Below, in pieces: positions 1 to 20,997 of a stretch of 22,700 bases of DNA. Position 1 is the first letter of the stretch. Each line of letters starts with the position of its first letter. A model generated the notes under the pieces. It ran no database searches and was not told where the DNA came from. It saw nothing but the letters and a program-made list of their open reading frames with translations. The stretch is from an uncultured Oscillospiraceae bacterium. GTDB lineage: Bacteria > Bacillota_A > Clostridia > Oscillospirales > Oscillospiraceae. A program made the position numbers and the translations under genes. The stretch lies in assembly GCA_900762245.1 (NCBI GenBank), contig CAAFFR010000033.1, positions 1 through 22,700 of the forward strand, given 5' to 3'.

Positions 1-2820
1 AGAGCTTTCAAAGGGCATTCCCTCTGCCTCAAAGCGCAGGCCGAAGCCGCTGTCATCGGTGACTTCCAGCCAACGGGTGCCCATGCGGTTGCCGCATTCG
101 CCGGGAACCATGTACCGGGACAGGTTGGCAGCCGCATTGCCGCCGAAGATGCCCAGCTTGGCACCGTCCATACGGTCCCAGTAATTTTCCTCGGGGCCGT
201 AGCCATAGTAGCGGAAGTTGTGGTATTTTTCCTTCAGCTTGAAGTTCATGCCGAAGGCGGGCAGACTGGGCAGGTTCTCCTGACCGAAGTAGGTTGCCTC
301 CACGGTAATGGCACCGTCGCCGGTGACGGTGTAGGAAATGGTCTGCTTCACTACGGGCACCATAGGAACCTCGTAGTCCATGGTAACGGTGACTTCGTTT
401 TCACCTTCTGTGACCCGGCAGTCCACTATTTTCTGATACAAACCTGCGGTCATCCACTGTCCACGGTCAAAGCCATGCTTGCAGCCCCGGTCGTTATCGG
501 TCAGGGCACGCCAGTAGGTGGTTCTGGGAACCCGGGTAATCATTTCCACATCGTCATAGCGGAGGCTGGAAATGCCGCCCTCGCCTCTGGAAATGTGGAC
601 GTGGAAGCCCTCACCCTTAACGCCGATGTTCACATCGCCCCAGATGACCTGCAGAGGCTTGGTGCACTTAACCTTGGGTCCTTCGATGGTTCTAATGTAC
701 TGGCCGAAGCAAATTTCATAGCCCTTTTCCGCCCAGTCCGTATCCGCAGGCTGAACCATAGACACTTCATAGGTATATTCTCCGGCTCCGGTAACCTCCG
801 GGAAAGGAAGGGCGAAATAGGCCTTCTCCCCTGCCTCCGCCACCAGCTTCAGAGGTTCACTTTCAAAAACAGGTTCACCGTTTTTCAGCACCCGGCAGAC
901 AAAGTCATAGCAGGCAGTGGTGATAAAGAGGTTTTCGTTCTTCACGGTGACACCCTTCTCATCGGGGAAGAGCTTGACATTGGAGAACCAGGCCTTGACC
1001 TCCTGGGCCTTGGGAGAAACGGTGCGGTCAGCATAGACCAGGCCGTTGGTGCAGAACTCGTAGTCGGTAGGCCGCTCATCATGGTCGCCGCCGTAGGACA
1101 GGTATTCCTCGCCCTGCTCATTGACATGGACCACTGCCTGGTCCATATAGTCCCAGATAAAGCCGCCCTGATACTGCTCATACTTATCTTCCAGCTCCAT
1201 ATACAGGTTCAGGTTGCCGCCGGAATTGCCCATGCAGTGGAGGAACTCGCAGCTGATATAGGGCTTTTCGGGCTTGGAGGCCAGATATGCGTCAATATCC
1301 ACAGGCTTGGCATACATCCGGCTTTCCATGTCGGAGATGTGGCACCAGTCCCGATTCCAGACGCAGCCTTCGTAATGGACCAGACGGGTATCATCCACCT
1401 TATGGAAGAATTTGGTCATATTTTCCAGGCAGGTGCCCACATAGGACTCATTGCCCAACGACCAGATCAGGATGGAAGGATGGTTCTTATCCCGCTGGAA
1501 CATGGAGTTGGCACGGTCCAGGACGCATTCCTGCCATTCAGGCTCGCTGCCGGGAACATTCCAGCTGGGCTCCAGCTGGCCCAGCTTCTGCCAGGAGCCG
1601 TGGCTTTCCAGATTGGTCTCGTCAATGAGGTAGATGCCGTAGCGGTCACAGAGCTTGTACCACAGGCTCTGGTCGGGATAATGGCAGGTGCGCACAGCAT
1701 TGAGGTTATGGCGCTTCAGGAAGCGGATGTCCCACAGCATATCCTCCTCAGTGATAGCCCGGCCCCGCTTGCAGTTAAATTCGTGACGGTTCACACCCCG
1801 GAAGAGGATGCGCTTGCCGTTGATGTGCATGACGCCGTTCTTCATTTCAAAGCTGCGGAAGCCTACATCCATGGGAACTGCTTCCACGGTGATGCCGTCT
1901 TCTCCGGTGATGTAGAGGTACAGCTGATAGAGGTTGGGCACCTCAGCACTCCACTGCTTTACGCGGGGAACCACGGTCTTAAAATGAACGGTTTCCGAAA
2001 CAGGAAGGGTCTCGGTATAGACGGCATTTCCATCGGCATCTTCCAGCACGGCGGTAATGGTGCCTTTCAGCTTGCCGGACAGCTTCGCAGCAATGTCCAG
2101 CATACCGTTTTCATAGGCTTCATCCAGAGTGGATTTCAGGAAGAAGTCCTCCACATGGGTCTCAGGCACGGCATACAGGTACACATCCCGGAAGATACCG
2201 GAGAAGCGCCAGAAGTCCTGGTCCTCGATCCAGCTGGCACTGGCCCGCTTGTAAACTTCCACGGCCAGCTTATTCTCGCCCTCTACCAGATAGTCGTCCA
2301 ACTGGAATTCAGAGGGAGTGAACGTATCCTCGCTGTAGCCCACAAAATGACCGTTCAGCCAGACATAGAACGCGATTTCTACGCCCTGGAAGGAAATGGA
2401 GATAGGCCTGCCCTTCAAGGCTTCCTCCACTTCAAAATAGCGGACATAGCTGCCCACGGGATTGTAGCTTTCAGAAATCTCAGGGGGACGCAGGAACTCT
2501 GTACCATCCCAGGGGTACTGGGTGTTGATGTACATCATGGTATCATAGCCCTGGGTCTGGATATGACCGGGGACCTGAATTTTGTCAAAGCTGCGGCAGT
2601 CAAAGTCTGCCTTGTAAAAATCTTTTACCCGCAGGGAAGGATTTTTTGCATAAGAGAAATACCAGGTTCCATTTAAGCACTGACGCAGGGGCATTTTCTC
2701 CTCTGCCCGGGCTTCGGCCATGGTTTCATAATACAGATGATCGGAATGGGCATCCTTACGGTTCACCGCAAAGACTTCCGGATCAGAAAGCCAGGATAAA
2801 TCGGGGTGATTTGCTTTCAT
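1..2820 (-). CDS. lacZ: Beta-galactosidase, GH2 family (3' end beyond window)
   Basis: Hydrolyses terminal beta-galactosides such as lactose in the cytoplasm. From the ATG at 2820 the frame stays open for 940 codons to the window edge, so roughly 70-90 C-terminal residues are missing compared with the usual ~1020. The GH2 layout is visible: an N-terminal jelly-roll with WRFSGIFRDVYL, then the TIM barrel with FRGVNRHEF and NAVRTCHYP. The acid/base Glu is in WSLGNES (about residue 458) and the nucleophile Glu in ISCEFLHCMGNS (about residue 525), close to E461 and E537 of the E. coli enzyme. The C-terminal part matches the small-chain domain (PRTTYWRALTDND, YYGYGPEENYWDR). There is no signal peptide. 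AAAGGAA lies just upstream of the start. The gene is separated from the kinase gene upstream by a terminator and has its own promoter. The family call is very secure. The natural substrate could be a host or milk galactoside rather than lactose. Confidence 0.96.
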   Translation of the reverse strand, partial: MKANHPDLSWLSDPEVFAVNRKDAHSDHLYYETMAEARAEEKMPLRQCLNGTWYFSYAKNPSLRVKDFYKADFDCRSFDKIQVPGHIQTQGYDTMMYINTQYPWDGTEFLRPPEISESYNPVGSYVRYFEVEEALKGRPISISFQGVEIAFYVWLNGHFVGYSEDTFTPSEFQLDDYLVEGENKLAVEVYKRASASWIEDQDFWRFSGIFRDVYLYAVPETHVEDFFLKSTLDEAYENGMLDIAAKLSGKLKGTITAVLEDADGNAVYTETLPVSETVHFKTVVPRVKQWSAEVPNLYQLYLYITGEDGITVEAVPMDVGFRSFEMKNGVMHINGKRILFRGVNRHEFNCKRGRAITEEDMLWDIRFLKRHNLNAVRTCHYPDQSLWYKLCDRYGIYLIDETNLESHGSWQKLGQLEPSWNVPGSEPEWQECVLDRANSMFQRDKNHPSILIWSLGNESYVGTCLENMTKFFHKVDDTRLVHYEGCVWNRDWCHISDMESRMYAKPVDIDAYLASKPEKPYISCEFLHCMGNSGGNLNLYMELEDKYEQYQGGFIWDYMDQAVVHVNEQGEEYLSYGGDHDERPTDYEFCTNGLVYADRTVSPKAQEVKAWFSNVKLFPDEKGVTVKNENLFITTACYDFVCRVLKNGEPVFESEPLKLVAEAGEKAYFALPFPEVTGAGEYTYEVSMVQPADTDWAEKGYEICFGQYIRTIEGPKVKCTKPLQVIWGDVNIGVKGEGFHVHISRGEGGISSLRYDDVEMITRVPRTTYWRALTDNDRGCKHGFDRGQWMTAGLYQKIVDCRVTEGENEVTVTMDYEVPMVPVVKQTISYTVTGDGAITVEATYFGQENLPSLPAFGMNFKLKEKYHNFRYYGYGPEENYWDRMDGAKLGIFGGNAAANLSRYMVPGECGNRMGTRWLEVTDDSGFGLRFEAEGMPFESS

Positions 2821-3011: not shown

Positions 3012-4394
3012 TTACTTGACCTTGGGCAGAGATGCTGCAGCCACGGACTGACCGACGCGGCGCATCTTTTCATCAGGCAGAGTGACGTTGCACTTGGCAG
3101 CCAGCTCAGGATATTCTTCAGCCAGCACTTCCTTGCAGACACGCAGGATGGTGTCGCCGCCCTTGCCGGACATAACGCGGCCCAGCAGCATCATGTACTC
3201 GATGTCATAGAACTGAGAGTACAGAACCGTGGTGTAAGCCAGATAGACACCGATGGTCTCGAAGATGGCCTGCGCTCTGGGATCGTCAGCTTCCATCAGC
3301 TTCTGGACAAACTTCAGTTTTTCTGCCAGAGTCAGTTCCTCGGGGATCTCAATACCGGCAGCGGGAGCCAGCTTGATAACAGCATCCTGAGAGAAGTACT
3401 TGCAGCCAACGCCGAAGTCGGTGGACCACTCGTCCTGCATGGCATTCTCACACAGGTCAACGGGAGCGAAGGCCAGCTCGTTAATCCAGCCCAGAACGTT
3501 CTGGTCCTTGTCAACATAGCCCACAGCCTCAGAAGTACCCATGGCAATGCCCATCAGGTTGCCCTTACCCAGACCCATGGCACCGGCCAGGGCAGAAACG
3601 TCACCATCGTTGGCAACCAGCAGAGGTGCATCGGGATTCACCGCTGCACCGGCCCGATCGTAGATGGTCTTGACCTTGTCCCAGTTGGAGCGGGGGACCT
3701 TGATGAACAGGGAAGCAACCATGGGAGCATTGCCGATGAAGGTACCGGCAGAGGAAACGCCGATGGCATCGACTCTGGGCATCTTGGATGCAGCCAGCTT
3801 CATAGCCTTGACGATGTGCTCGAAGTGATACTCAGGATCGCTGTTCAGCTTGGGCAGCCAGACAACTTCTTCAGAGAAGATGGTCTCACCGTCCACAACA
3901 GCGGAAACCTTCATATCAGAGCCGCCGGCATCGAAGCCGATACGGCAGCCATCCATATAACCGCCGATAGACTCAGGAACTTCGCTGGAAGCAGGCACCT
4001 GATCCAGAGACAGCGCCACGATCTCCAGATCCCGCTCGTAGAGCTGGTTGACGAAGGTATAGTCAAATTCACGGTCACCGCCGATCTTGTAAGCCTTCTG
4101 CAGCTTCTCGGCCAGTTCAGGGCAGCCGCAGATAGAGACACGGAAGCCGCCGGTGGACCACAGCAGGAACTTCACATAACGCTCAACATAGCGGTAGTCA
4201 GCAGCTGCCATCTCGGGAGTGCCGTGGATGCAGGTATGATGGACGGAAACGCGGCCCTTGTCCCGCTCAACGGCAATGGCAATGGGCTGCTTTGCATCCT
4301 TCAGATAAGCGGCGCGCCAAACGCCGAAGGGAATGAACTGAGGGTCCAGCTTGGGGGTGAATTTCTGCTGGTATTCAACGCCTAAGTACTGCAT
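3012..4394 (-). CDS. ROK/ASKHA-fold sugar kinase, putative GlcNAc or ManNAc kinase
   Basis: 460 residues. The start at 4394 is chosen because TAGGAGGAAC precedes it; a longer reading from 4448 would run across the predicted promoter. Residues 1-148 form an N-terminal extension with no motif I recognise. The kinase core then begins with a phosphate-binding loop, RIGFDAGGSDMK (151-162, family DxGGTxxK). It continues with GVSSAGTF (212-219), NDGDVSALAGA (262-272; Asp263 is the likely base, as in ROK NDAN motifs) and AMGTSEAVG (284-292). The ROK zinc motif CxCGxxGCxE is absent and the length exceeds the usual ~300. It follows nanA and a YdcF gene but has its own promoter. With a 2-epimerase for free sugars nearby, GlcNAc is the substrate I favour; ManNAc is the main alternative. 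Kinase fold is fairly sure, substrate is inference. Confidence 0.75.
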   Translation of the reverse strand: MQYLGVEYQQKFTPKLDPQFIPFGVWRAAYLKDAKQPIAIAVERDKGRVSVHHTCIHGTPEMAAADYRYVERYVKFLLWSTGGFRVSICGCPELAEKLQKAYKIGGDREFDYTFVNQLYERDLEIVALSLDQVPASSEVPESIGGYMDGCRIGFDAGGSDMKVSAVVDGETIFSEEVVWLPKLNSDPEYHFEHIVKAMKLAASKMPRVDAIGVSSAGTFIGNAPMVASLFIKVPRSNWDKVKTIYDRAGAAVNPDAPLLVANDGDVSALAGAMGLGKGNLMGIAMGTSEAVGYVDKDQNVLGWINELAFAPVDLCENAMQDEWSTDFGVGCKYFSQDAVIKLAPAAGIEIPEELTLAEKLKFVQKLMEADDPRAQAIFETIGVYLAYTTVLYSQFYDIEYMMLLGRVMSGKGGDTILRVCKEVLAEEYPELAAKCNVTLPDEKMRRVGQSVAAASLPKVK

Positions 4395-4430
4395 AAAGAA
4401 GTTCCTCCTAAATTTATTGTTTCTGATTTC

Positions 4431-4458
4431 ATTATAGCATAGTTGCACCGGTATGCAA
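4431..4458 (-). promoter_or_regulatory. Promoter of the ROK-like kinase with operator-like dyad
   Basis: Minus-strand TTGCAT (4458-4453) and a perfect TATAAT (4436-4431), preceded by TGC (extended -10), are spaced 16 bp apart. A dyad TTGCA-N6-TGCAA (4443-4458) covers the -35 box and part of the spacer, which suggests repressor control independent of the upstream operon. Confidence 0.65.
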
Positions 4459-4490
4459 TAGCATTATCGACTATTTTTTGTCAAAATCAA

Positions 4491-5141
4491 CTATTTGGCA
4501 AGCTGCTTGTCATAGCCCATTTCCACCAGTTCGCGGAAAGCCTGCCACGCCTCCTCCGGAATCGTCTGGGGCAGCTGCCAGCCCTTTTGGGCATACAGCT
4601 CCATTCTCTGGAAATCGCCTACGATGACGGAAATGGAAGCATTTTCGCTGATGCCCTGCTGCTTCGCCCGGTGCAGGTATTCAGGAATCGTAACCTGGGG
4701 AGAAGTCACCTGAAACGCAAGGTCCGGCCAATAGACACCCATAGCCGCCGTGATCCGCCGCTCCATGAAGGGCTGATGAACACCCAGGAGCCGGGGGTGC
4801 ATCAGCCCCAGTTCCTGCAGCATTTCCCGGGTAAAGAGAATGTTTTCCGCCGTATTCCGGGATTTATCTTCCAGAATGATATCTTCCTCCGGCACACCGC
4901 ATTCCATAGCCACCCGGGCGAACCGCACCGCTTCCGGTTCCGGCAGCAGGCCTTCCGTATTACGGCCCAGGCCCCCCGTAAACAGGACCTTTGGGGCATA
5001 GCCCTGCAAGTACAGCTCTGCCGTCCGGCGGGCAATGTCTGTGTTGAAGTTGCCAAAGCCCACGATACAGTCTGCCTTTTCCGGTTCCTGATGGAGGCAC
5101 AGATAATCCCAGATAATTTGTAACGGTTTTAGGTATTCCAT
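4491..5141 (-). CDS. DUF218/YdcF-family protein
   Basis: 216 residues. The ATG at 5141 follows GGGGAG at a normal distance; an in-frame ATG 21 bases upstream lacks a site. The DUF218 signature is clear: IVGFGNFNTDIARRTAELY near the N-terminus, KVLFTGGLGRNTEG, and the conserved KSRNTAENILFTREML helix near the middle. There is no signal peptide or membrane segment, unlike SanA/ElyC members, so it resembles the soluble YdcF type, whose biochemical role is unsettled. It lies 67 bases after nanA, beyond a terminator hairpin, and 97 bases before the kinase gene. Its position suggests a link to amino-sugar metabolism, but no reaction can be assigned. Family call secure, function unknown. Confidence 0.85.
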   Translation of the reverse strand: MEYLKPLQIIWDYLCLHQEPEKADCIVGFGNFNTDIARRTAELYLQGYAPKVLFTGGLGRNTEGLLPEPEAVRFARVAMECGVPEEDIILEDKSRNTAENILFTREMLQELGLMHPRLLGVHQPFMERRITAAMGVYWPDLAFQVTSPQVTIPEYLHRAKQQGISENASISVIVGDFQRMELYAQKGWQLPQTIPEEAWQAFRELVEMGYDKQLAK

Positions 5142-5169
5142 AGCTTCTCCCCGCGAAATCATCTTTTGG

Positions 5170-5199
5170 AAAAAGCCGCCGGAGTTTGCCCCCGGCGGC
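5170..5199 (-). terminator. Intrinsic terminator after nanA
   Basis: Stem GCCGCCGG/CCGGCGGC (5175-5182 with 5192-5199), followed on the minus strand by TTTTTCC. It begins 10 bases after the nanA stop and ends about 30 bases before the YdcF start, so expression of the downstream genes probably depends on read-through or their own promoters. Confidence 0.8.
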
Positions 5200-5208
5200 A
5201 TTGGGTTT

Positions 5209-6117
5209 TTAGCAATACTTGGCAACAGCAGCCTGAATCATGGCGACAGCCTCGTCAACGATCGCATAGTCGCTTTCGATCAGCTCTGCCAGAGGGGCGC
5301 GGACAGAGCCGCAGTCGGGGCAGCCCATCTTCCGCAGGGCTTCCTTAATCATGCCGTACATATTGCCGTGGCCGGAGCACAGCTTGTAGATGATGCGGCA
5401 GCAGTCATTCTGAATTTCCAGAGCCTTTGCCAGATCACCGGCCTTGACACAGCGGTACAGCTCCACATACAGCTCGGGCATTGCACCGTAGGTGCCGCCG
5501 ATGCCGCCGATGGCACCCATCACCAGGCCGGAAATCAGCTGCTCGTCGGGACCGTTGAAGACGATAGCGCCCTCGTCCTTCCACATCTGAATGTCCTGAG
5601 TGGGCATAGAGGAGTTCTTGACACCGATGCAGCGGGGGTTCTTCAGCATTTCCTTCAGCAGAGGAACGGACAGGGAAACGCCGGCCAGCTGGGGAATGTT
5701 GTAGATGATGAAGTCAGTGTTGGGAGCAGCTGCGCTCATGTCATTCCAGTACTTGGCAATGGCATAGGGAGGCAGCTTGAAGTAGATGGGAGGAATGGAA
5801 GCGATGGCATCGACACCCAGAGCTTCTGCGTGGGCAGCCAGTTCCTGAGAATCGGCAGTGTTGTTGCAGGCGATATGGGCAATGATGGTCAGCTTGCCCT
5901 TGGCCTCGGCCATGACATTCTCCAGAACGAGCTTACGCTCTTCCTTGCTCTGGTAGATGCACTCGCCGGAGGAACCGCCAACGTACAGACCCTGAACACC
6001 CTTTTCGATGAACCAGCGGGTCAGTGCACGGACAGCCTCAGTGTCAATGCCGCCATCTTTGTTGTAGCAGGCATAGAAGGCAGGGATAATACCCTCGTAC
6101 TTTTTCAGATCAGACAT
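5209..6117 (-). CDS. nanA: N-acetylneuraminate lyase
   Basis: Class I aldolase that cleaves N-acetylneuraminate to ManNAc and pyruvate. At 302 residues it has the normal length of the DapA/NanA family. Visible motifs are YVGGSSGE (45-52, carboxylate-binding GS-GE loop), IPPIYFK (108-114), YNIPQLAG with catalytic Tyr139, and GVKNSS with Schiff-base Lys167. These agree in spacing with Y137/K165 of the E. coli lyase, and the NIPxLAG continuation favours NanA over dihydrodipicolinate synthase. AAGGAG precedes the ATG at 6117. It follows two permease genes on the same strand, separated by a 113-base gap with secondary structure. The neighbouring 2-epimerase for free N-acylhexosamines supports the sialic-acid assignment. 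Confidence 0.9.
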   Translation of the reverse strand: MSDLKKYEGIIPAFYACYNKDGGIDTEAVRALTRWFIEKGVQGLYVGGSSGECIYQSKEERKLVLENVMAEAKGKLTIIAHIACNNTADSQELAAHAEALGVDAIASIPPIYFKLPPYAIAKYWNDMSAAAPNTDFIIYNIPQLAGVSLSVPLLKEMLKNPRCIGVKNSSMPTQDIQMWKDEGAIVFNGPDEQLISGLVMGAIGGIGGTYGAMPELYVELYRCVKAGDLAKALEIQNDCCRIIYKLCSGHGNMYGMIKEALRKMGCPDCGSVRAPLAELIESDYAIVDEAVAMIQAAVAKYC

Positions 6118-6151
6118 ACGTTATCTCCTTGTAATGATATGCTTAAATTAT

Positions 6152-6210
6152 CTCGAATCGGGCTGGCCACCTATTGGTGATGGATAAGCAGCCAGCCATC
6201 AGGCTCGAAT
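6152..6210 (-). other. Structured gap between permease 2 and nanA
   Basis: The gap holds an inverted repeat GGCTGGC...GCCAGCC (6161-6167, 6191-6197) with a small CACC-TATT-GGTG hairpin inside, flanked by a direct repeat of CTCGAAT (6152-6158, 6204-6210). There is no T-tract, so it is probably not a terminator. It might be an mRNA-processing or stabilising element. No convincing promoter was seen before nanA. Confidence 0.35.
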
Positions 6211-6230
6211 TGCCGGCGGCGGCTTACCGC

Positions 6231-7190
6231 TTAGCCCTTAACGGCACCCATGGTGATGCCCTTGGTGAAGTACTTCTGGAAGATCAGGAACACGATGATG
6301 ATGGGCACGGAGGCCAGTGCTGCACCTGCCATCAGCAGACCATAGTCGGTGGAGGATTCGCCCTGCATGGTGGCGATACCCAGAGAGATGGTCAGGTTCT
6401 TGTTGGAGGTCAGCATGATCAGCTGCATGAAATAGTCATTCCAGGAGTTGATGAAGGTAAAGATGGCGCAGGCGCCGACACCGGGCTTGATCATGGGGAA
6501 CATGACATCGGTGAAGGTTCTCCACTCGGAGGCACCGTCAATGCGGCAGGCTTCCACCATTTCGGTGGGGATGCCTTCTGCAAACTGCTTCAGCAGGAAC
6601 ACGCCGAAGGGCCAGCCGACGATGGGGAAGATAACAGCCCAGATGGTGTCATACAGACCCAGTGCAGACATTTCCCGCAGCAGGGGGATCAGAATGACCT
6701 GCTTGGGCAGAGCCATGGCGCAGACCACCAGGGTGAAGATCAGGGTCTTGCCCCAGAAACGCTTCTTGGCCAGGACATAGCCAGCCATAGCGGAGGTCAG
6801 GCAGGTGATCAGCATAGCTGCCACGGACATGAACACGGTGTTGATCAGCCAGCGGATAGCAGCGGGAACGGTGGGGCCGGTGATTTTAATGGTGCTGCCC
6901 AGACGGATCACATAACCAAAGGCGCTGATCTTCAGGCCGGGGATGGTCATGTCAAACAGGGGTGCAGAGCGCTTGCTCATCAGGCGCTGGAAGTTGCCCA
7001 TATCCCACTCAGAGGGAATCCAGATGGGGGTGGTGGAGTTGATTTCCTTACCGGTTTTGAAAGCACCGGTGATGATCCAGTACAGGGGGAATGCAAACAG
7101 GAAGGCAATGATGCCGACGGCCACAAAAGAGAGGATGTAGTAGGCTCTCTGTCTTGCAGCATTCTGGTTCAGACGGTTCTGATTCTTCAT
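6231..7190 (-). CDS. CUT1 ABC transporter permease, MalG type (putative sialic acid uptake)
   Basis: 319 residues; inner-membrane subunit of a binding-protein-dependent sugar importer. The ATG at 7190 is chosen because GGGAGG sits 9 bases upstream, while a GTG at 7196 would be only 3 bases away. About six hydrophobic segments are visible, the first at residues 19-41 (YYILSFVAVGIIAFLFAF) and the last near 290-307. The ATPase-contact loop reads VEACRIDGASEWRTF (about 212-226), with EAC in place of the common EAA. The second periplasmic loop is long, as in MalG proteins. The ribosome site lies across the end of the upstream permease, a tightly coupled arrangement. The sialic-acid substrate is inferred from nanA and the epimerase. 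No ATPase gene is present. Confidence 0.88.
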   Translation of the reverse strand: MKNQNRLNQNAARQRAYYILSFVAVGIIAFLFAFPLYWIITGAFKTGKEINSTTPIWIPSEWDMGNFQRLMSKRSAPLFDMTIPGLKISAFGYVIRLGSTIKITGPTVPAAIRWLINTVFMSVAAMLITCLTSAMAGYVLAKKRFWGKTLIFTLVVCAMALPKQVILIPLLREMSALGLYDTIWAVIFPIVGWPFGVFLLKQFAEGIPTEMVEACRIDGASEWRTFTDVMFPMIKPGVGACAIFTFINSWNDYFMQLIMLTSNKNLTISLGIATMQGESSTDYGLLMAGAALASVPIIIVFLIFQKYFTKGITMGAVKG

Positions 7191-7205
7191 ATCCACACGC
7201 CTCCC

Positions 7206-8114
7206 TTACTTTTCTTCACCCAGTTTAAACTGGATGGCGGACAGGATTGCGATGATGATTGCCAGAATAACACCCATTGCATTGCCGTAGCCGTACTTGT
7301 ACAGCTTGAAGGCGTTGTAATAGATGTAGTACATGATGGTCATGGTCGAGTTGTTCGGTCCGCCCAGAGTCAGCAGCTGGATCAATGCGAAGCACTGGAA
7401 GGAGTTGATGGTGGTAATGACCAGGATGTACAGGGTGGTGGGCATCATCTGGGGCCACTTGATGCGCCAGAAGGCCTGCATCTGGGTGGCGCCGTCCACT
7501 TCGGCAGCTTCCACCAGAGACTTGTCCACGTTGTCCAGAGCGGAAACGTACAGGACGATGGGCTGACCCACGGAGGTGGTCAGCAGGATCAGAATGATAC
7601 AGCCCAGAGCATACTTGGGATCGCCCAGCCAGTTGATGTTCTTATCCAGCAGGCCCATGTTGGTGCCCAGGTAGTTGAAGATGCCGTAGTAGTTATTGTA
7701 CATCCACTTCCAGACCATGGTAACGGCAACAGAACCGGTAACCACGGGCAGATAGAAGATGCAGCGGAATGCGGAGGTTGCCGCAACCGGCATCTTTGCG
7801 ATGACAGAGGCCACCCACAGGGAGAAAGCGCAGGTCACAGGCACAGACACCAGAACGATGATCAGCGTATTCTTCAGCGCGATCCAGAATACATCATCGT
7901 TGAACAGGGTCTTATAGTTTTCAAAACCAACAAAGATATCCTCACGGCCCATGGTAGCGTCAAAGAAACTGGTATAGACGCACATGAACATGGGGTAGAT
8001 CACGAACAGCACAAAGAACACCAGGAAGGGTGCCAGGAACAGGTAGGACGTAGTGGTTTCACGGATCATCAGACGCCGGGACTTGGCGTTGACGGAAATT
8101 TTCTTATCTGCCAA
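7206..8114 (-). CDS. CUT1 ABC transporter permease, MalF type (putative sialic acid uptake)
   Basis: 302 residues. I choose a TTG start at 8114 because GAGGAGG lies 9 bases upstream. Reading back to another TTG at 8150 would place that ribosome site inside the coding sequence. The protein has a basic N-terminus (KSRRLMIRETTTSY), a first membrane segment at about 24-48 and five more after it. The EAA loop reads VEAAEVDGATQMQAFW (201-216) followed by IKWPQMMP, which docks the ATPase. It is separated from its binding-protein gene by a palindromic repeat and a terminator-like hairpin, and lies 15 bases before the next permease start. Family assignment is firm; substrate is inferred from context. 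Confidence 0.88.
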   Translation of the reverse strand: MADKKISVNAKSRRLMIRETTTSYLFLAPFLVFFVLFVIYPMFMCVYTSFFDATMGREDIFVGFENYKTLFNDDVFWIALKNTLIIVLVSVPVTCAFSLWVASVIAKMPVAATSAFRCIFYLPVVTGSVAVTMVWKWMYNNYYGIFNYLGTNMGLLDKNINWLGDPKYALGCIILILLTTSVGQPIVLYVSALDNVDKSLVEAAEVDGATQMQAFWRIKWPQMMPTTLYILVITTINSFQCFALIQLLTLGGPNNSTMTIMYYIYYNAFKLYKYGYGNAMGVILAIIIAILSAIQFKLGEEK

Positions 8115-8153
8115 GGTTGAGATCCTCCTCTCAGAATAACCAAAATACAATAT

Positions 8154-8226
8154 GTAGGGCAGGGGCTTACCCCCACCGTGGCAGCAATGGTTACAACTTG
8201 CCGGTGGGGGCAGGCCCCCACCCTAC
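8154..8226. repeat. GC-rich palindromic intergenic repeat
   Basis: Two 25-base arms pair with about 21 matches (8154-8178 and 8202-8226), beginning GTAGGG and ending CCCTAC, with a 23-base loop. Such GTAGGG...CCCTAC elements are commonly seen dispersed in Oscillospiraceae genomes (general knowledge, not checked here). It lies just upstream of the ribosome site of the permease gene, so it is transcribed within the operon and may behave as a MITE- or REP-like element. Confidence 0.7.
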
Positions 8227-8258
8227 GGTGAAATCCATTATCATACTTTATAAAACTC

Positions 8259-8290
8259 AGCGCCCCTCCCCTTGGATGGGAAGGGGCGCT
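8259..8290 (-). terminator. Hairpin between binding protein and permeases
   Basis: Two 13-base arms (8259-8271, 8278-8290) pair with one mismatch around a 6-base loop. On the minus strand the stem is followed by GAGTTTTA, a modest U-tract, about 35 bases past the binding-protein stop. It probably works as a partial terminator or 3' stabiliser that keeps binding-protein mRNA above permease mRNA. On the plus strand it is followed by TTTTGCTTT. Confidence 0.65.
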
Positions 8291-8324
8291 TTTGCTTTAG
8301 GTCTTTTCCGTGTTCAGCAATTGC

Positions 8325-9701
8325 TTACTTGCCGTTAGCCTGGTTGACGTACTGCTCAACAGCGGCGGAGATAGCCTCGACGGAACCGTCGGAAGCACCA
8401 ACCTGCTGCAGCATGTTCCACCAGCAGGTACGAGCCTCAGCCCAACCGGTGGTGACCTGGTAGTAGTCGCCCAGCAGAGGCATCAGGACGTTGTACTCAG
8501 CCATGATAGCGTTGTCAGCCCAGATGGTGGACAGGTCAGCACCCTCAGCGGAGTTACGAACTGCGAAGTAGTTAGCAGCCTTGACAGCGTCAGCGGTAGC
8601 AGCGGAGTCGCAGAAGTACTTGATGAAGGTCTTAGCAGCTTCGATCTTGGCAGCGTCGCCATTGTCGAAGATACCGAAGCCCCAGATACCGCCCTGCAGA
8701 GCGGGGGTGGTGTCGGAGGGGAATGCCATGAACATGATCTCGTCGCCGTTAGCAGTCAGCTCAGCACCGGTGTTGGCGGTGTTGGGGTTCAGCTGCTGTG
8801 CGATGTTCCAGCAGAATGCAACGTTCAGAGTGCCGTTGTAGAACAGAGCGATCTCGTCGCCGCCAGCGATACCGGCGTCGAATGCGATAGCGGGGTTGTC
8901 ATACAGCTTCTTCAGAGCAGCGACGTTCTCGTCGGAGCCCCAGGTGTACTCGGTGTGCTCAGCGTTGGTGAAGGTGCCGCCGCACAGGTTGTTGACCAGT
9001 GCACGGGTACCCTGGTCACCGCCCTGACCGACGCAGTAGACAGCGCCGACCTGAGCACCGGTGTACTCGTAAACAGCAGCGATAGCAGCTTCGAAGTCAG
9101 CAACGGACTTCCAGGTGTGGGTGTCTTCGTTGATGTACTGCATAGCGCCGGCAGCCTCGAAGACGGTCTTGTTGATGCCCATGCAGTGAGCGGTCATGAC
9201 CAGAGGATACTCGTAAGCAGTGTTCTCGTCAGCGAAGCAGGCAGCCAGAGCGGCAGCGTTGACTTCAGCCTTGTCGGTGTCGTCGTACAGGTCAGCGATG
9301 TTGACCATCTTGCCCTTGGCGCCCCAGTTGGCGACCAGACGCTCGGGACCTTCCATGATCAGGTCGGGAGCAGCGTTGCCCTCGATAGCGGTGTTGACCT
9401 TGTCGTCGCCGTCAGCGTAGGTCAGGTACTCAACGGTAACCTTGATGCCGGTGTCGGCCTCGAACTTGGCCATCAGAGCATCAACGGTCTCCTGAGTGCC
9501 CCAGCCACCGATGGGATAGGTCCACAGGGTGATCTCGGAAGCGACAGCGGGAGCGGCAGGTGCGGCAGCCTCGGTCTCAGCGGGAGCGGCGGGAGCAGCA
9601 GCCTGAGTCTCTGCGGGCTTGGGCTCTTCCTTCTCAACGGAGCAGGCAGCCAGGGACATGACCATAGCCAGAGCCAGCAGAAGTGCGATAAACTTCTTCA
9701 T
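8325..9701 (-). CDS. Extracellular sugar-binding lipoprotein of CUT1 transporter (putative sialic acid)
   Basis: 458 residues. A lipoprotein signal peptide ends in LAAC with the lipidated Cys at 20, followed by an Ala/Pro/Glu-rich linker to about residue 54 that tethers the domain outside the membrane. The mature part starts ITLWTYPIGGWGTQETVDAL and continues with IKVTVEYLTYADGDDKV, the usual opening of cluster 1 (MalE-like) binding proteins. PDLIMEG and LQGGIWGFGIF are further family landmarks. TAGGAGG precedes the ATG at 9701. The gene has a promoter about 140 bases upstream and a leader with two hairpins, and is followed by a terminator-like stem before the permeases. Its ligand is inferred as sialic acid or a derivative from nanA and the epimerase. 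It could also bind a sialylated or amino-sugar oligosaccharide. Confidence 0.88.
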   Translation of the reverse strand: MKKFIALLLALAMVMSLAACSVEKEEPKPAETQAAAPAAPAETEAAAPAAPAVASEITLWTYPIGGWGTQETVDALMAKFEADTGIKVTVEYLTYADGDDKVNTAIEGNAAPDLIMEGPERLVANWGAKGKMVNIADLYDDTDKAEVNAAALAACFADENTAYEYPLVMTAHCMGINKTVFEAAGAMQYINEDTHTWKSVADFEAAIAAVYEYTGAQVGAVYCVGQGGDQGTRALVNNLCGGTFTNAEHTEYTWGSDENVAALKKLYDNPAIAFDAGIAGGDEIALFYNGTLNVAFCWNIAQQLNPNTANTGAELTANGDEIMFMAFPSDTTPALQGGIWGFGIFDNGDAAKIEAAKTFIKYFCDSAATADAVKAANYFAVRNSAEGADLSTIWADNAIMAEYNVLMPLLGDYYQVTTGWAEARTCWWNMLQQVGASDGSVEAISAAVEQYVNQANGK

Positions 9702-9765
9702 TGTTTTTCCTCCTAGATTTTTTACTGATATGCTTACGGCTTGTGCCGTGAAAGCCAGAAATCAT

Positions 9766-9807
9766 CCATCCTCAGATTATGAGGATGGAAAAAGGGCTAG
9801 CCCTTTT
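9766..9807 (-). promoter_or_regulatory. Double-hairpin mRNA leader of the binding-protein gene
   Basis: In the minus-strand leader the first element is the 18-bp palindrome AAAAGGGCTAGCCCTTTT (9790-9807). It is followed at once by a hairpin CCATCCTCA/TGAGGATGG with a 5-base loop (9766-9788). The leader of malE at 20567-20612 has the same design with a different second stem. About 64 bases separate the hairpins from the start codon. No known riboswitch class was recognised. Confidence 0.55.
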
Positions 9808-9840
9808 AAAAATTGCGGATTTGCACAATTTTCAGTATTC

Positions 9841-9869
9841 ATATTACAGCAAAGTTTTTGCAAAGTCAA
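9841..9869 (-). promoter_or_regulatory. Promoter of the sialic-acid transport operon
   Basis: Minus-strand TTGACT (9869-9864) and TAATAT (9846-9841) are spaced exactly 17 bp. The spacer TTGCAAAAACTTTGCTG matches the malR promoter spacer (14236-14252) at 12 of 17 positions. The 331-base divergent region 9702-10032 contains only this promoter, the leader hairpins, a cre-like site and the plus-strand promoter. Confidence 0.65.
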
Positions 9870-9931
9870 CAGCTTTCCGAAAATTGTTTTCCTGTTTTCT
9901 ATGTTTCTGAAAACTTTTTCCGTTTCGCACA

Positions 9932-9946
9932 AGAAAACGTTTCCAA
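9932..9946. promoter_or_regulatory. Candidate cre (CcpA) site
   Basis: The minus-strand 15-mer TTGGAAACGTTTTCT fits the cre consensus WTGNAANCGNWNNCW at every defined position. It lies 62 bp upstream of the -35 of the transport operon and 34 bp upstream of the -35 of the esterase gene, between the divergent promoters. Catabolite control of both units is plausible. A local LacI-family repressor could use the same AAACGTTT core. Confidence 0.6.
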
Positions 9947-9980
9947 ATTTTAGCAACTTGACGAAAGTATTCCGATACCC

Positions 9981-10008
9981 TTGACGCATCTTGAAAACAT
10001 GATATTCT
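9981..10008 (+). promoter_or_regulatory. Promoter of the SGNH esterase gene
   Basis: TTGACG (9981-9986) and TATTCT (10003-10008) are separated by 16 bp and lie 25 bases upstream of the start codon, with GGGAGG at 10018-10023. The short leader leaves little space for other control elements. Confidence 0.55.
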
Positions 10009-10032
10009 GTAAGAAAAGGGAGGTATGATCCT

Positions 10033-10674
10033 ATGAAAAAACACATTCTCTGCTTAGGCGATTCCAATACCCACGGCTACTGTGCCGATCCTTCCGACTG
10101 CGCAGACGGCGGCATTCGCTTCAACGAAAACGAGCGCTGGACCTGCCTGCTGCAGAAGGCTCTGGGCGACGAGTATCTGGTCACGGAAGAAGGTCTGTCC
10201 GGCCGCACCACCGTTTTTGTGGATCCTCTTCACGAAAGCATGGATGCCCTCAGCGTTGCCTACCCTCTGCTGAAGAGCCATGAATTCATCGACCTGCTGA
10301 TCATTATGCTGGGCACCAACGACACCAAGGACCGTCTGGGCATGAATGCTGCCTGCATCGGTCTCGGCATGGAGCGCCTGGTCCGCAAGTGCATGAGCGT
10401 GGACTGCTGGGGCAGCCACGGTCCCAACATTCTCATCGTCTCTCCCCCTCCCATCGGCGAGAAGCTGAACGATCCCTGCATGGGCACCACCTGCGCAGCA
10501 AAATCTCAGGAGCTGGCTCATTATTATAAATTGAAGGCAGACCTGCTGGGCTGCCACTTTATGGATGCCAACGGCTGCGAATTCAATCAGATTGACTACA
10601 TGCACCTGACCCGCAAGGGCCATGCCCAGCTGGCAGAGCGCTTCGCCCAGCTGATTCCCCAGATTGTAAAATAA
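10033..10674 (+). CDS. SGNH/GDSL hydrolase, putative intracellular sialate O-acetylesterase
   Basis: 213 residues with all SGNH blocks: CLGDSNTHG (7-15, nucleophile Ser11), GLSGRT (54-59), MLGTNDTKD (92-100, oxyanion Asn96), and DYMHLTRKGH (188-197) carrying the catalytic Asp188 and His191. There is no signal peptide or membrane anchor, so it should act in the cytoplasm. The length suits the arylesterase/TesA-like branch. It is transcribed divergently from the sialic-acid transporter and is followed by yesL on the opposite strand. Host sialic acids are often 9-O-acetylated and lyases handle these poorly, so an imported O-acetyl sialic acid is a reasonable substrate. That part is inference from location; the SGNH fold is firm. 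Deacetylation of another imported sugar is the alternative. Confidence 0.85.
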   Translation: MKKHILCLGDSNTHGYCADPSDCADGGIRFNENERWTCLLQKALGDEYLVTEEGLSGRTTVFVDPLHESMDALSVAYPLLKSHEFIDLLIIMLGTNDTKDRLGMNAACIGLGMERLVRKCMSVDCWGSHGPNILIVSPPPIGEKLNDPCMGTTCAAKSQELAHYYKLKADLLGCHFMDANGCEFNQIDYMHLTRKGHAQLAERFAQLIPQIVK

Positions 10675-10688
10675 TCCAAGTCTGAATA

Positions 10689-10716
10689 TCATTGCCGGTG
10701 CGTGCGCCGGCAATGA
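10689..10716 (+). other. Hairpin 3' of the SGNH gene
   Basis: Stem TCATTGCCGG/CCGGCAATGA (10 bp) with an 8-base loop starts 14 bases past the esterase stop. It lacks a T-tract (CAGAAAACAAAAA follows), so it is more likely a 3' stabilising or palindromic repeat element than a complete terminator. Confidence 0.45.
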
Positions 10717-10725
10717 CAGAAAACA

Positions 10726-10755
10726 AAAATGCCGCCGGTTATTCGGCAGCATTTT
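10726..10755 (-). terminator. Terminator overlapping the yesL stop codon
   Basis: AAAATGC-c-GCCG pairs with CGGC-a-GCATTTT around a 6-base loop that contains part of the yesL stop codon (10739-10741). On the minus strand TTTTTGTTTT closes and follows the stem. The plus-strand transcript of the esterase may also stop here. Confidence 0.6.
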
Positions 10756-11365
10756 CAGCAGGCATATAGGGTTTGAACATAGGCTCGATGAGCAGCGTGG
10801 ACAGCAGTGCTGTCAGAGCCGGCAGGAAAAACAGGGGTACTACATAGAAAGCGCACATCAGCAGAGAAAAGGCATTCAGCATTCCCAGCAGCAGTGTCCG
10901 GGGCAGATTGGCCATCGCCAGCAGCAGTGTGTTTTTCAGCAGTGCTGCCAAAGAATTATCAAACCGGGACAGCATGGGAAACAGCACGCTTAAAATGCCC
11001 AGCACAAAGACCCCGGCAAAGGCTCCGCCGGAGAACACGGTCCAGGAAACCGCACCGTAGACCGCCGCATTCCAAAGGGAAATCAACACCTTTGTCAGCA
11101 CCGCAAATACCATTAGGAAAATTGCGGTGGGCAGAATGCCGGATTTCCAGTTTCCCCGGAAGGTCCGCCAAAACCGCTGCCATCCCTGCTTGTCTCCCTT
11201 GCGGTAGGCATGGAACACCGCATCATACAGCGCAGCAAACGCGGCTCCCATGGTAAACAGGGGAAAACATCCCAGAACCCAGAACAGACTCAGGAAAATG
11301 CAGTCGGTGATCTGAGTCATGGTGATCATCAGCGGACTGTCGGGACGAAGAAGGTTTCGGAACAT
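10739..11365 (-). CDS. YesL-like DUF624 membrane protein
   Basis: 208 residues with about five hydrophobic segments (roughly 18-48, 77-100, 108-132, 140-155, 163-195). The N-terminus, MFRNLLRPDSPLMITMTQITDCIFLS, is typical of the DUF624/YesL family: a short amphipathic lead and then a first membrane helix ending in GCFPLFTMGAAFAALYDAV. YesL proteins are usually found beside CUT1 sugar transporter genes and their function is not established; a role in transporter assembly or regulation has been guessed. Here it is divergent from the epimerase gene. GGAGG sits 7 bases before the ATG at 11365 and a good promoter precedes it. Family call is secure, function unknown. Confidence 0.85.
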   Translation of the reverse strand: MFRNLLRPDSPLMITMTQITDCIFLSLFWVLGCFPLFTMGAAFAALYDAVFHAYRKGDKQGWQRFWRTFRGNWKSGILPTAIFLMVFAVLTKVLISLWNAAVYGAVSWTVFSGGAFAGVFVLGILSVLFPMLSRFDNSLAALLKNTLLLAMANLPRTLLLGMLNAFSLLMCAFYVVPLFFLPALTALLSTLLIEPMFKPYMPAENAAE

Positions 11366-11391
11366 AGGGTCGCCTCCAAAGGTTTTTCCCT

Positions 11392-11420
11392 ATTTTAGCA
11401 CAGTTTCCCCGTTCTGTCAT
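11392..11420 (-). promoter_or_regulatory. Promoter of yesL
   Basis: Minus-strand ATGACA (11420-11415) and TAAAAT (11397-11392) are spaced 17 bp, with TGC just before the -10 (extended -10). It is back-to-back with the epimerase promoter, 40 bp away. Confidence 0.6.
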
Positions 11421-11459
11421 CTGTCTTTCACAAAAATCCTTTTCTCATCGGAATAATCA

Positions 11460-11488
11460 TTGAAATCATTTTTCATCAGTGATATAGT
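11460..11488 (+). promoter_or_regulatory. Promoter of the epimerase-RpiR operon with operator-like dyad
   Basis: TTGAAA (11460-11465) and TATAGT (11483-11488) are spaced 17 bp. The inverted repeat TGAAA-TCATT-TTTCA (11461-11475) overlaps the -35 box and half the spacer, a position where a bound repressor would block RNA polymerase. The RpiR regulator encoded in the same operon is the obvious candidate. Confidence 0.6.
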
Positions 11489-11516
11489 ATATAAAAACAC
11501 AACAGGAGGAACTTTT

Positions 11517-12707
11517 ATGGATCGTAAAAAATTTCTCGCAGAGCGTCAGTGGATTCGCAGCCAGCTGGCAAACGTTGCCGATTTCTGGCTGAAGAACGGC
11601 TGGGACCATGAGCACGGCGGTGTCACCACCTGCCTGGACCGCACCGCCCAGGTCTACTCCACCGATAAGAGCGTCTGGATGCAGGGCCGCTGCGGCTGGA
11701 CCTATGCTTACCTGTGCAGCATCTACGGCGTTCGGGAAGACTGGCTGAAGTTCTCCAAGAGCTGCATCGACTTCCTGGAAGAGCACTGCGTCAACCATGA
11801 CGCTGACGGCCGCCTGTACTTCACCGTGGAGGCCGACGGCACTCCCCTGCGTCAGCGCCGCTACTGCTACTCCGAAGCTTTCTACTGCATCGCCAATGCC
11901 GAATACTACGGCGTTACCGGCGAACGGGAGCACCTGCTCCGCGCCCGCCGCGCCTATGACATGTACTGGAATCTGAACCACGGCATGACCGATCCCACCG
12001 GCATGGGCCCCAAGTCCACCCGTACCGGCCGCGCTCTGGGCATCCCCATGATCATTCTGAACGTCACCGGCGTCATGAAGCGGGTGGACCCCGAGATGAA
12101 GGAGCTGTACGATGAGCGGGCCAAGGAATGCGTCGCCGACATCTTCAACTACCATGTCAAGCCCGAGCTGGGCTGCACTCTGGAATCCGTCTGTGTCGAC
12201 GGCACTCCCCGTCTGAATGTCACCGAGGGCCGTATGGTCAACCCCGGTCACGATATTGAGTGCGCCTGGTTCCTGATGGACTACGCCAATGATGTGGGCG
12301 ATCCCGAACTGCACAAGAAGGCCATCAACGTCTTCGACATGGCCTTCTCCAAGGGCTGGGACGATGAGTTCGGCGGCATCCTGTACTTCATGGACTGCCT
12401 GGGCAATCCTCCCGAGGCTTACGAGCACGACATGAAGCTGTGGTGGCCCCACAACGAAGCGCTGATCGCTTCCATGATGATCTACCGCGACACCAAGGAC
12501 GAAAAGTATCTGGACATCTTCTACCAGATCCTGGATTACTGCAAGAAGTACTTTGCCGATGAGTATGGCGAGTGGTACGGCTATCTGCGCCGTGACGGCA
12601 AGCCCACCCTGCCCGCCTGCAAGGGCTCTACCTTCAAGGGTCCCTTCCATGTCCCCCGCTGCCTGATCCTGGTGGATCAGATGATGACCCAGGTCCTGGG
12701 CGAATAA
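11517..12707 (+). CDS. N-acylglucosamine 2-epimerase (AGE/RnBP family)
   Basis: 396 residues, full length for the family. It interconverts free ManNAc and GlcNAc without phosphorylation. The (alpha/alpha)6-barrel landmarks are seen in order: MQGRCGWTYAYL with Arg58, RRYCYSEAFYCIANAEYYGVTG, NVTEGRMVNPGHDIECAWFL with His245, KLWWPHNEALIA with His312, and KGPFHVPRCL with His378. His245 and His378 correspond to the catalytic pair of the porcine enzyme. CAGGAGGA precedes the ATG at 11517; an in-frame ATG at 11460 lies inside the promoter. Codons are strongly biased to C-ending forms, suggesting high expression. It is cotranscribed with an RpiR regulator. With nanA nearby and no nanE seen, it supplies the ManNAc-to-GlcNAc step. 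Cellobiose 2-epimerases share the fold, but the sialic-acid context argues against that. Confidence 0.9.
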   Translation: MDRKKFLAERQWIRSQLANVADFWLKNGWDHEHGGVTTCLDRTAQVYSTDKSVWMQGRCGWTYAYLCSIYGVREDWLKFSKSCIDFLEEHCVNHDADGRLYFTVEADGTPLRQRRYCYSEAFYCIANAEYYGVTGEREHLLRARRAYDMYWNLNHGMTDPTGMGPKSTRTGRALGIPMIILNVTGVMKRVDPEMKELYDERAKECVADIFNYHVKPELGCTLESVCVDGTPRLNVTEGRMVNPGHDIECAWFLMDYANDVGDPELHKKAINVFDMAFSKGWDDEFGGILYFMDCLGNPPEAYEHDMKLWWPHNEALIASMMIYRDTKDEKYLDIFYQILDYCKKYFADEYGEWYGYLRRDGKPTLPACKGSTFKGPFHVPRCLILVDQMMTQVLGE

Positions 12708-12720
12708 CCGACTGCCATTG

Positions 12721-12743
12721 GGGTCGGGTCATTGACCCGACCC
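12721..12743. repeat. Perfect GGGTCGGGTCA palindrome
   Basis: A 23-base odd-centred palindrome: GGGTCGGGTCA, a central T, then its exact complement. It lies between the epimerase stop and the RpiR ribosome site. It is followed by TGCAAAC, not a T-tract, so it is not a typical intrinsic terminator. It resembles dispersed GC-rich palindromes of gut Clostridia and may lower regulator expression relative to the epimerase. Confidence 0.6.
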
Positions 12744-12780
12744 TGCAAACAGATTCCTGCCAATCGAAAGGAGACACGGT

Positions 12781-13635
12781 ATGAACGAACAGAATAGCAT
12801 TGACATTTTGGAACGCATCCATGCCTCCTATTACCAGCTGACCGCTGCGGAACGAAAGGTTGCCGACTATGTTCTGACCCAGCACAGCCAGGTCCAATTT
12901 ATGTCCATTACGCAGCTGGCAGATGAATGCGGAACCGCGGAAGCCACCATCTCCCGATTCTGCCGGAGTCTTAAACTGAAGGGCTTCAATGCCTTTAAAA
13001 TCGAGCTTGCACGACGCTCTGCCGCCAATCCTGTTGCCGCGGCGCAGGAGCCATCCAGGGACTCCACCCTGGGCCGCAGCCAGGAAGTCGGCCGCATGGC
13101 AGGCGATGCCGTCCGGCAAACCATTGAGCTGGTGGAACCGCAGCAGGTTCAGAAGGCTGTGGAATTGATTGAAGGTGCGCCTCATGTTATTTGCATCGGC
13201 TCCGGCGGCTCCATGCTGCTTGCTCAGGAGTGCGCTCACCTGTTTTCCACCGTCACAGGCAAGTTTTACGCCGTGTCTGATTCCCATATGCAGATGTCTG
13301 CCGCTGCCACCATGGGCAAGGAAGATATCATTATCCTCTTCTCCTACTCCGGTGCCACCACCGGCGGTCTGCAGATTCTGGAATACGCCAGAGAAAAGGG
13401 AATCCGCACCATTCTCATCACCCGGTTCAACAAATCCCCGGCCGCGAAGCTGGCAGATGTGGTGCTGCGGTGCGGCTCCAACGAAGGCCCCTTCCAGTTC
13501 GGTTCCGTCCCCGCAAAAATCGCCCAGCTTGTTGTCGTGGATGTACTGTTTCAGGAATATTTCCACCGCAACCGGGAATGCTGCGAAGAAAATATTCAGA
13601 ACATTGCCTCTGCCCTCTCCGGCATGCATGTTTGA
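12781..13635 (+). CDS. RpiR-family transcriptional regulator (HTH_6 + SIS)
   Basis: 284 residues. Residues 1-77 form the winged-helix domain, with LTAAERKVADYVLTQHSQV and the recognition region ITQLADECGTAEATISRFCR (43-62). A linker leads to a SIS sugar-phosphate-binding domain from about 120 to 265, with VICIGSGGSMLLAQE and FSYSGATTGG, the loops that bind the phosphate. GAAAGGAGA precedes the ATG. RpiR proteins usually sense phosphosugars such as ManNAc-6-P or GlcNAc-6-P and often control nan genes. Here the gene follows the epimerase in one transcript, so it is the likely local regulator of sialic-acid use, probably acting on the dyad over the epimerase promoter. The effector is not determinable from sequence. 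Confidence 0.9.
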   Translation: MNEQNSIDILERIHASYYQLTAAERKVADYVLTQHSQVQFMSITQLADECGTAEATISRFCRSLKLKGFNAFKIELARRSAANPVAAAQEPSRDSTLGRSQEVGRMAGDAVRQTIELVEPQQVQKAVELIEGAPHVICIGSGGSMLLAQECAHLFSTVTGKFYAVSDSHMQMSAAATMGKEDIIILFSYSGATTGGLQILEYAREKGIRTILITRFNKSPAAKLADVVLRCGSNEGPFQFGSVPAKIAQLVVVDVLFQEYFHRNRECCEENIQNIASALSGMHV

Positions 13636-15314: not shown

Positions 15315-15324
15315 GGGCACGCCC

Positions 15325-15849: not shown

Positions 15850-15851
15850 CA

Positions 15852-15888
15852 AACACCGGTCGGAACGCCAATTCCGACCGGTGTTATT
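15852..15888. terminator. Bidirectional terminator between ogt and traX-like gene
   Basis: A 14-bp perfect stem AACACCGGTCGGAA/TTCCGACCGGTGTT with a 6-base loop is followed by ATTATTCC on the plus strand and TTGTTATTTTGG on the minus strand. It lies between the convergent stop codons of the two genes and probably serves both. Confidence 0.85.
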
Positions 15889-15894
15889 ATTCCA

Positions 15895-16668: not shown

Positions 16669-16700
16669 AAAAGGGGTCCTTTCGAGGTAAAAATGTTTTT

Positions 16701-16768: not shown

Positions 16769-16804
16769 ATGGTGAAAAGGAAGCTCTTGTTGCTTGTTCG
16801 GTAA

Positions 16805-19068: not shown

Positions 19069-19152
19069 TTTACCGTCTCCCTTCGTTTTCTCAGAAAAAT
19101 TCTCTAAAATGCAAGATTTTTCCTGATTTTTCTTGATTTTAAGTAGAGTAAA

Positions 19153-20987: not shown

Positions 20988-20997
20988 TTATACGATT

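Follow-up and report, generated by a model that had tools for sequence, protein, structure and literature searches.

The window considered here, namely the whole stretch of 22,700 nucleotides that was analysed, belongs to an uncultured Oscillospiraceae bacterium and carries, from 3012 to 13635, a set of genes that we read with considerable confidence as a module for the import of sialic acid and its breakdown through free N-acetylglucosamine (GlcNAc), under the control of a regulator of the RpiR family. The genes follow one another in this order (ABC stands for ATP-binding cassette, AGE for acylglucosamine 2-epimerase, ManNAc for N-acetylmannosamine):

3012..4394, minus strand: two-domain kinase of ROK fold, 460 residues, predicted GlcNAc 6-kinase (modelled fold and gene context)
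4491..5141, minus strand: DUF218 (YdcF-like) gene, between the kinase gene and nanA (PF02698, 57 bits)
5209..6117, minus strand: NanA, N-acetylneuraminate lyase (DHDPS family, 201.5 bits; PDB 6rab, E 7.8e-127)
6231..7196, minus strand: CUT1 ABC permease 2 (PF00528, 83.5 bits; conserved neighbour of AGE)
7206..8150, minus strand: CUT1 ABC permease 1 (PF00528, 42 bits; conserved neighbour of AGE)
8325..9701, minus strand: solute-binding lipoprotein of the importer (PF13416, 78.3 bits)
10033..10674, plus strand: SGNH/GDSL hydrolase, candidate sialate O-acetylesterase (PF13472, 60.9 bits; PDB 7bxb, E 2.8e-30)
10739..11365, minus strand: YesL/MusI-like membrane protein, DUF624 (PF04854, 43.5 bits; NF052431, 94.5 bits for a cut-off of 160)
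11517..12707, plus strand: AGE-family epimerase, predicted to convert ManNAc to GlcNAc as free sugars (PF07221, 160.9 bits for a gathering score of 23.4)
12781..13635, plus strand: RpiR-family regulator with helix-turn-helix and SIS domains (PF01418, PF01380; best PDB match 4ivn, E 1.2e-27)

A previous reading of this DNA, made without database searches (the sequence-only reading), had named the lyase, the CUT1 importer, the esterase, YesL, the AGE-type epimerase and the RpiR protein, and profile and PDB matches find all of them where it had placed them; its gene list for the interval was nevertheless incomplete, as it passed over the DUF218 gene. It had also taken these genes to form a coherent module, and they do recur together. 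Across 80 fetched AGE loci, many of which end at contig edges, and counting matches of at least 35% identity over half of the query, NanA was found in 53, permease 1 in 33, permease 2 in 32, the solute-binding protein in 31, the regulator in 30, the SGNH hydrolase in 28, the kinase in 27, YesL in 22 and the DUF218 gene in 7. In all 53 loci that have NanA it lies at most 6.7 kb from AGE, and within 103 bp in 21 of them. All-against-all clustering of the AGE loci gave 14 clusters present in at least eight loci: nine correspond to the module genes of the window and AGE, and the remaining five are unlabelled frames that we take to run antisense to module genes, going by where a single example of each is located. 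The grouping exceeds chance. One relative (G075) has nagA, nagB, nanA, the permeases, the solute-binding protein, rpiR and AGE on a single strand, the kinase and SGNH genes being divergent.

The nearest matches of the epimerase belong to metagenome-assembled genomes (MAGs) of Oscillospiraceae and Clostridiales, some of them named Faecousia. One locus, L001, from a goat rectum MAG (G001), shares with the window eight aligned segments lying between bases 1608 and 20985, at 82-91% nucleotide identity; G001, whose draft assembly measures about 3.0 Mb, is a close relative, probably of a different species, and we used it as a stand-in for the window's own genome in whole-genome searches. We further sampled 250 genomes of its family and 197 order-wide. 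NanA was called at E<=1e-80, which retained 49 of the 250 family genomes, to which G055 and G104 from the order-wide sample were added to make 51; an AGE was called close at 63% identity or more.

We can now describe the route that the module would support. The CUT1 importer would take up a sialic acid, which is probably the ligand of its solute-binding lipoprotein (the nearest PDB entry, 9rsi, E 1.1e-44, is titled just 'sugar-binding protein', and the ligand is not readable from it), with the YesL protein as a possible accessory of the importer. The SGNH esterase may strip O-acetyl groups; NanA would then cleave N-acetylneuraminate (Neu5Ac) into ManNAc and pyruvate, AGE would epimerise free ManNAc to GlcNAc, and the two-domain kinase would convert GlcNAc into its 6-phosphate (GlcNAc-6-P). 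NagA, the GlcNAc-6-P deacetylase, together with NagB would complete the path to fructose-6-phosphate: neither gene is in the window, both are elsewhere in the collinear G001, they lie beside the module in some relatives, and among the genomes given 62 of 66 scored above cut-off for nagA, 29 of 30 for nagB. The order from Neu5Ac to ManNAc, GlcNAc and GlcNAc-6-P, proposed at the outset, is supported by comparative genomics, which we take up enzyme by enzyme.

In NanA, Lys167, Tyr139 and the GPDE motif, which we take to be the catalytic positions, are conserved in 64 or 65 of 65 aligned sequences. The closest solved structure, 6rab, is that of the Ruminococcus gnavus enzyme, as given in the part of PMC10017367 covered. 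The epimerase matches the solved AGEs 8bry, 1fp3, 6f04 and 2gz6 at 249-274 bits, when cellobiose epimerases reach 83 bits at best and YihS is also far weaker; likewise, of the NCBIfam models, NF052547 for AGE gives 308.3 bits, that for cellobiose epimerase 84.6 and that for mannose isomerase 35.6. Residues R58, H245, E248, E314 and H378, placed by motif from the alignments of PDB matches, are conserved in 81 of 81 sequences, and R58, E248, E314 and H378 fit the active-site arginine, glutamate and histidine positions named in the portion of PMC6333288 covered. The same source offers the hypothesis that the N-acetyl pocket is lined by Phe/Ala/Ile in AGE instead of Tyr/Asn/His. The window has Tyr118/Gly175/Ile179 (over the 81 sequences, Y in 46 and F in 35, G in 77 and A in 4, I in 81), so that two of the three positions are small or aliphatic, as in AGE. 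Family membership points to free ManNAc as the likely substrate.

The sequence-only reading had seen no NanE, the ManNAc-6-phosphate (ManNAc-6-P) epimerase, and had named a nanE gene elsewhere in the genome, co-regulated with nanA, as a finding that would count against it. None was found among the 15 window proteins scanned, nor in the draft genome G001. More generally, the NanE profile PF04131 was above cut-off in none of 20 AGE-bearing genomes, G001 included (a single match, at 19.1 bits, fell below the cut-off of 27), when the same search was positive in 6 of 14 control genomes. Among the 51 NanA-bearing genomes NanE passed the cut-off in five, each time at most 1.4 kb from a NanA, and eight others had sub-cut-off matches alone. 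AGE was full-length in 44 of the 51; G362 has a fragment of it, residues 308-394, and the six without any are exactly the five with NanE and G424. Put as a contrast, AGE accompanies NanA in none of the 5 genomes with NanE and in 45 of the 46 without (one fragment), with a Fisher p of 2.6e-6 (n=51) for genomes that are not independent of one another. Over the whole family sample a close AGE is present in 45 of 250 genomes, 44 of the 49 with NanA against 1 of the 201 without; NanE is present in five (G193, G286 and G408 with NanA, G282 and G384 without); and no genome of the 250 has both. The free-GlcNAc route is thus far commoner than the NanE route among the related genomes sampled. Two weaker AGE homologues (44 and 51%) also occur in family genomes that have no NanA. 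As a separate observation, G282 and G384 carry NanE above cut-off without a close NanA or AGE, and G282 has the two-domain kinase beside nagA.

Shared ancestry is the natural objection to the Fisher test, and a tree of NanA answers part of it. The tree has 66 rows, of which the searched genomes were tested for NanE and the remaining ones, L078 included, were scored as without. The NanE label needs four changes on this tree, at least three being forced by well-supported branches: a single clade of seven holds the NanE genomes G193, G286 and G408 among the AGE genomes G075, G159, G105 and L078. Shuffling gave a count as low as the observed four in 33 of 500 trials, and the count does not distinguish gains from losses. 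NanE and AGE, two unrelated epimerases, appear to have taken each other's place next to one and the same lyase.

There remains the kinase, which is unusual in having two domains. It had been called ROK-like, and this holds for the modelled fold of residues 148-460; it does not hold at the level of profiles, as the protein scores 14.3 bits with Pfam ROK (PF00480) for a cut-off of 22.9, nor of sequence matches, there being none in the PDB even at E<=10. Residues 1-147 (window 3954-4394) form a confidently modelled domain, with a predicted local distance difference test (pLDDT) score of 92.4, and no confident structural match in the PDB. A possible counterpart of the DxGxT phosphate motif, D155-A-G157-G-S159, with Ser in place of Thr, is invariant in 32 sequences together with N262-D263, the candidate for the catalytic Asp. 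The family has at least 8000 members (8000 of 8000 scored candidates were homologous), and it is poorly caught by domain models: no precomputed Pfam domain was attached to any of 120 relatives, among the matches listed, and a homologue fused to another protein in L131 reaches 22.4 bits with PF00480.

GlcNAc is best read as the likeliest substrate of this kinase, because the company of nagA persists with or without NanA and AGE. Of the 37 family genomes that have the kinase and neither of these two genes, 20 were fetched down the score list, all those below 55% identity being omitted. There nagA lies on the same strand within 250 bp of the kinase gene in 12, within 800 bp in 15 and within the region in 16. 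A NahK cluster, one member of which matches PDB 4ocj (E 2.9e-93), is present in eight of the 20 regions, and in L131 (7167-9647, minus strand) and L133 NahK is fused to the kinase in a single frame of 827 residues adjoining nagA, which suggests a bifunctional GlcNAc enzyme. Cluster identities were checked by hidden Markov models on 3 of 24 members for nagA (L158, L130, L147), 1 of 12 for nagB and, for NahK, 1 of 8. Nineteen more kinase-nagA pairs on a single contig, picked by eye, include 14 within 188 bp; in one of them (G333) AGE is 1.26 Mb distant.

Alternatively, the kinase of the window could serve general GlcNAc or hexose use and be a mere neighbour, another hexokinase or ROK kinase working for the sialic acid pathway; we hold this to be improbable, while giving it more credit than any other alternative. 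In its favour, the DUF218 gene separates the kinase gene from nanA, the kinase gene seems to have its own promoter, 39 of the 80 family genomes that carry the kinase have no NanA, and five AGE genomes that lack it carry other ROK proteins. Yet, of the 45 family genomes with a close AGE, 40 have the kinase (three through partial matches), 37 of them on the contig of AGE and 30 as its divergent neighbour at less than 400 bp, and the single Pfam-ROK protein of G001 is on a different contig from the module. An alternative to which we give little weight makes the kinase a NanK that phosphorylates ManNAc, AGE merely buffering the pool of ManNAc and GlcNAc. ManNAc-6-P could then go no further unless NanE were present, and NanE was not above cut-off in 46 of the 51 NanA-bearing genomes. 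Moreover, where NanA and AGE are missing the kinase is mostly found beside nagA, nagB or NahK, which makes the ManNAc-specific kinase that the sequence-only reading had named as a possible objection unlikely; and apart from G282, the other 19 genomes of that set have no evident source of ManNAc or ManNAc-6-P among the genes searched. That AGE runs towards ManNAc, in a module that makes or salvages sialic acid, is very improbable, for although the reactions of NanA and AGE are reversible, the module contains an importer, nagA and nagB are inside the cluster in some relatives, and no sialate synthase or cytidine monophosphate (CMP)-sialate synthase is among the recurrent neighbours of AGE, such genes having had no separate search.

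A route through free GlcNAc thus remains our preferred reading, and the observations that weigh against it are best considered together. The kinase was not found in 5 of the 45 genomes with a close AGE, nor in 5 of the first 20 tested; nagA was not seen in 4 of the 20 kinase regions fetched from genomes without NanA and AGE, and one of these genomes, G282, has NanE on another contig. G424 has NanA with neither epimerase, and G436 has AGE and the kinase without NanA. The epimerase falls below the cut-off of the NCBIfam equivalog NF052547 (600 bits), and its Tyr118 matches the state of cellobiose epimerases. In the kinase the ExGH motif of the ROK pattern is replaced, in an alignment made by eye, by E306-L307-A308-F309, invariant in 32 sequences, and the zinc motif CxCGxxGCx(E/D) is not in the sequence. 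The 16-base palindrome matrix considered below finds no copy before the kinase gene in the window, and its third-best site (16687, 12.8 bits) is in a TraX frame outside the module. Finally, the genomes sampled are mostly drafts of unstated completeness. As to the zinc motif, the NanK of Fusobacterium nucleatum is also without it, according to the portion of PMC5458393 covered. The genomes with AGE and NanA and without the kinase are G302, G339, G397, G440 and G442; members of the nagA and nagB clusters lie beside AGE in G339, G397 and G442, and no nagA turned up in G302 and G440. Another kinase may serve these five.

The RpiR protein likely regulates the module. Its best PDB match, 4ivn, is presumably the NanR of Vibrio vulnificus. 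Four inverted repeats in the window bear on its possible targets, the strand being indifferent:

4443..4458: possible operator, an exact inverted repeat TTGCACCGGTATGCAA immediately upstream of a TATAAT-like box belonging to the kinase gene
9878..9893: weaker second operator-like palindrome upstream of the importer operon (10.2 bits)
9907..9922: operator-like palindrome CTGAAAACTTTTTCCG before the operon of the importer and nanA (13.6 bits, second best in the window)
11460..11475: operator-like palindrome TTGAAATCATTTTTCA upstream of AGE (15.5 bits, best site of the window)

The last three come from a 16-base matrix trained on 76 regions upstream of AGE, those of the window and L001 being excluded from training, with a seed picked after the regions upstream of AGE, the window's included, had been viewed; the likelihood was 141 with this seed and 116-128 with random ones. 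The palindrome is common upstream of AGE and not universal, 42 of the 76 training regions scoring at least 10 bits, and the best site averages 8.6 bits in shuffled windows, a control made of 20 single-base shuffles that is blind to local AT-richness. Through this shared palindrome the RpiR protein would control the transcription units of both AGE and the importer. The TTGCACCGGTATGCAA pattern has its sole exact match of the window before the kinase gene; allowing two mismatches there are 12 matches for 14.45 expected. The NanR of Streptococcus pneumoniae binds ManNAc-6-P (PMC12713135, in the portion covered). The pathway proposed here should make no ManNAc-6-P, and we therefore expect the effector of the RpiR protein to differ; the absence of this metabolite would allow a clear test of the signal to which a NanR-like regulator responds.

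The logic of the pathway is already known, from Bacteroides and from three Firmicutes genomes in print. For Bacteroides fragilis the order of lyase, AGE and kinase is established (PMC10017367, in the portion covered), and the analogy with NanL/NanE-II/RokA drawn by the sequence-only reading stands for this logic, with a lyase, an AGE acting on free ManNAc, a kinase making GlcNAc-6-P, then NagA and NagB. The kinase, however, lacks two ROK motifs, is under the Pfam ROK cut-off, has an extra N-terminal domain and is linked to AGE and nagA in relatives; the host also differs, being a member of the Bacillota with a CUT1 ABC importer, an RpiR regulator and a lyase nearest to that of R. gnavus. The nan clusters of the latter have the same type of NanA, and in the part of PMC12323340 covered its 2,7-anhydro-Neu5Ac cluster has an ABC importer, while its RJX1126/RJX1128 cluster combines a GDSL esterase and an RpiR-type regulator as in the window, but with a sodium symporter; unlike the window, R. 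gnavus uses NanK and NanE, phosphorylating ManNAc first. The ROK GlcNAc kinase PsNagK has a structural zinc site that is absent from the window's kinase, which in turn has an additional N-terminal domain of 147 residues (PMC10031466, in the portion covered).

The same pathway has been predicted from genomes and reported as rare: of 397 genomes analysed, 56 were assigned NanE-II, among them three Firmicutes (PMC5583593), and a free-sugar pathway was predicted in two Eggerthellales species (PMC8754123). The former calls NanE and NanE-II homologues, so that some of those it lists may be enzymes other than AGE. The portions of these two papers covered contain no gene cluster like that of the window, nor its kinase, and neither was met in the open-licence literature searched. 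As far as open-licence papers show, three things are new: how common the route is in this family, the swapping of the epimerases, and the family to which the kinase belongs. Sialic acid use is a main way in which gut microbes live off host mucus, and a global survey of it was built on nanE (PMC10570557); a search of its main text for the words AGE, acylglucosamine 2-epimerase and RokA finds none of them. In the family that we sampled, full-length AGE is found in 44 of 49 NanA-bearing genomes and NanE in just 3, and therefore a count of nanE would miss most of them. We are led to a broader proposition, which we favour as a whole with clearly less assurance than the pathway itself: the free-GlcNAc route would be the standard one for sialic acid in this Oscillospiraceae-type family, NanE and AGE would have been swapped on more than one occasion next to the same lyase, the kinase would stand for a family of GlcNAc kinases that has gone unrecognised and carries an orphan N-terminal domain, the RpiR protein would sense another molecule, for example GlcNAc-6-P, and surveys using nanE as a marker would miss these organisms. 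For the kinase family the outcome is a sharp substrate prediction, together with an orphan domain.

Other genes deserve a brief mention. A YhcH-family gene, possibly a sialate anomerase, adjoins NanA in L163, L165, L167 and L168 and was not seen in the window; the one member scored, that of L165, is above the cut-off of TIGR00022 and below that of NF040884. Next to the kinase gene lies a GH2 (glycoside hydrolase family 2) beta-galactosidase (1-2820, minus strand), clipped by the window edge, which is not a recurrent neighbour of AGE. The stretch 14292-22668 forms a second, separate sugar locus, with a LacI regulator, an MGMT-type protein, a TraX-family protein, a set of ABC genes assigned by eye to the maltose type and a GH13 enzyme; this locus is collinear in L001 up to base 20985.

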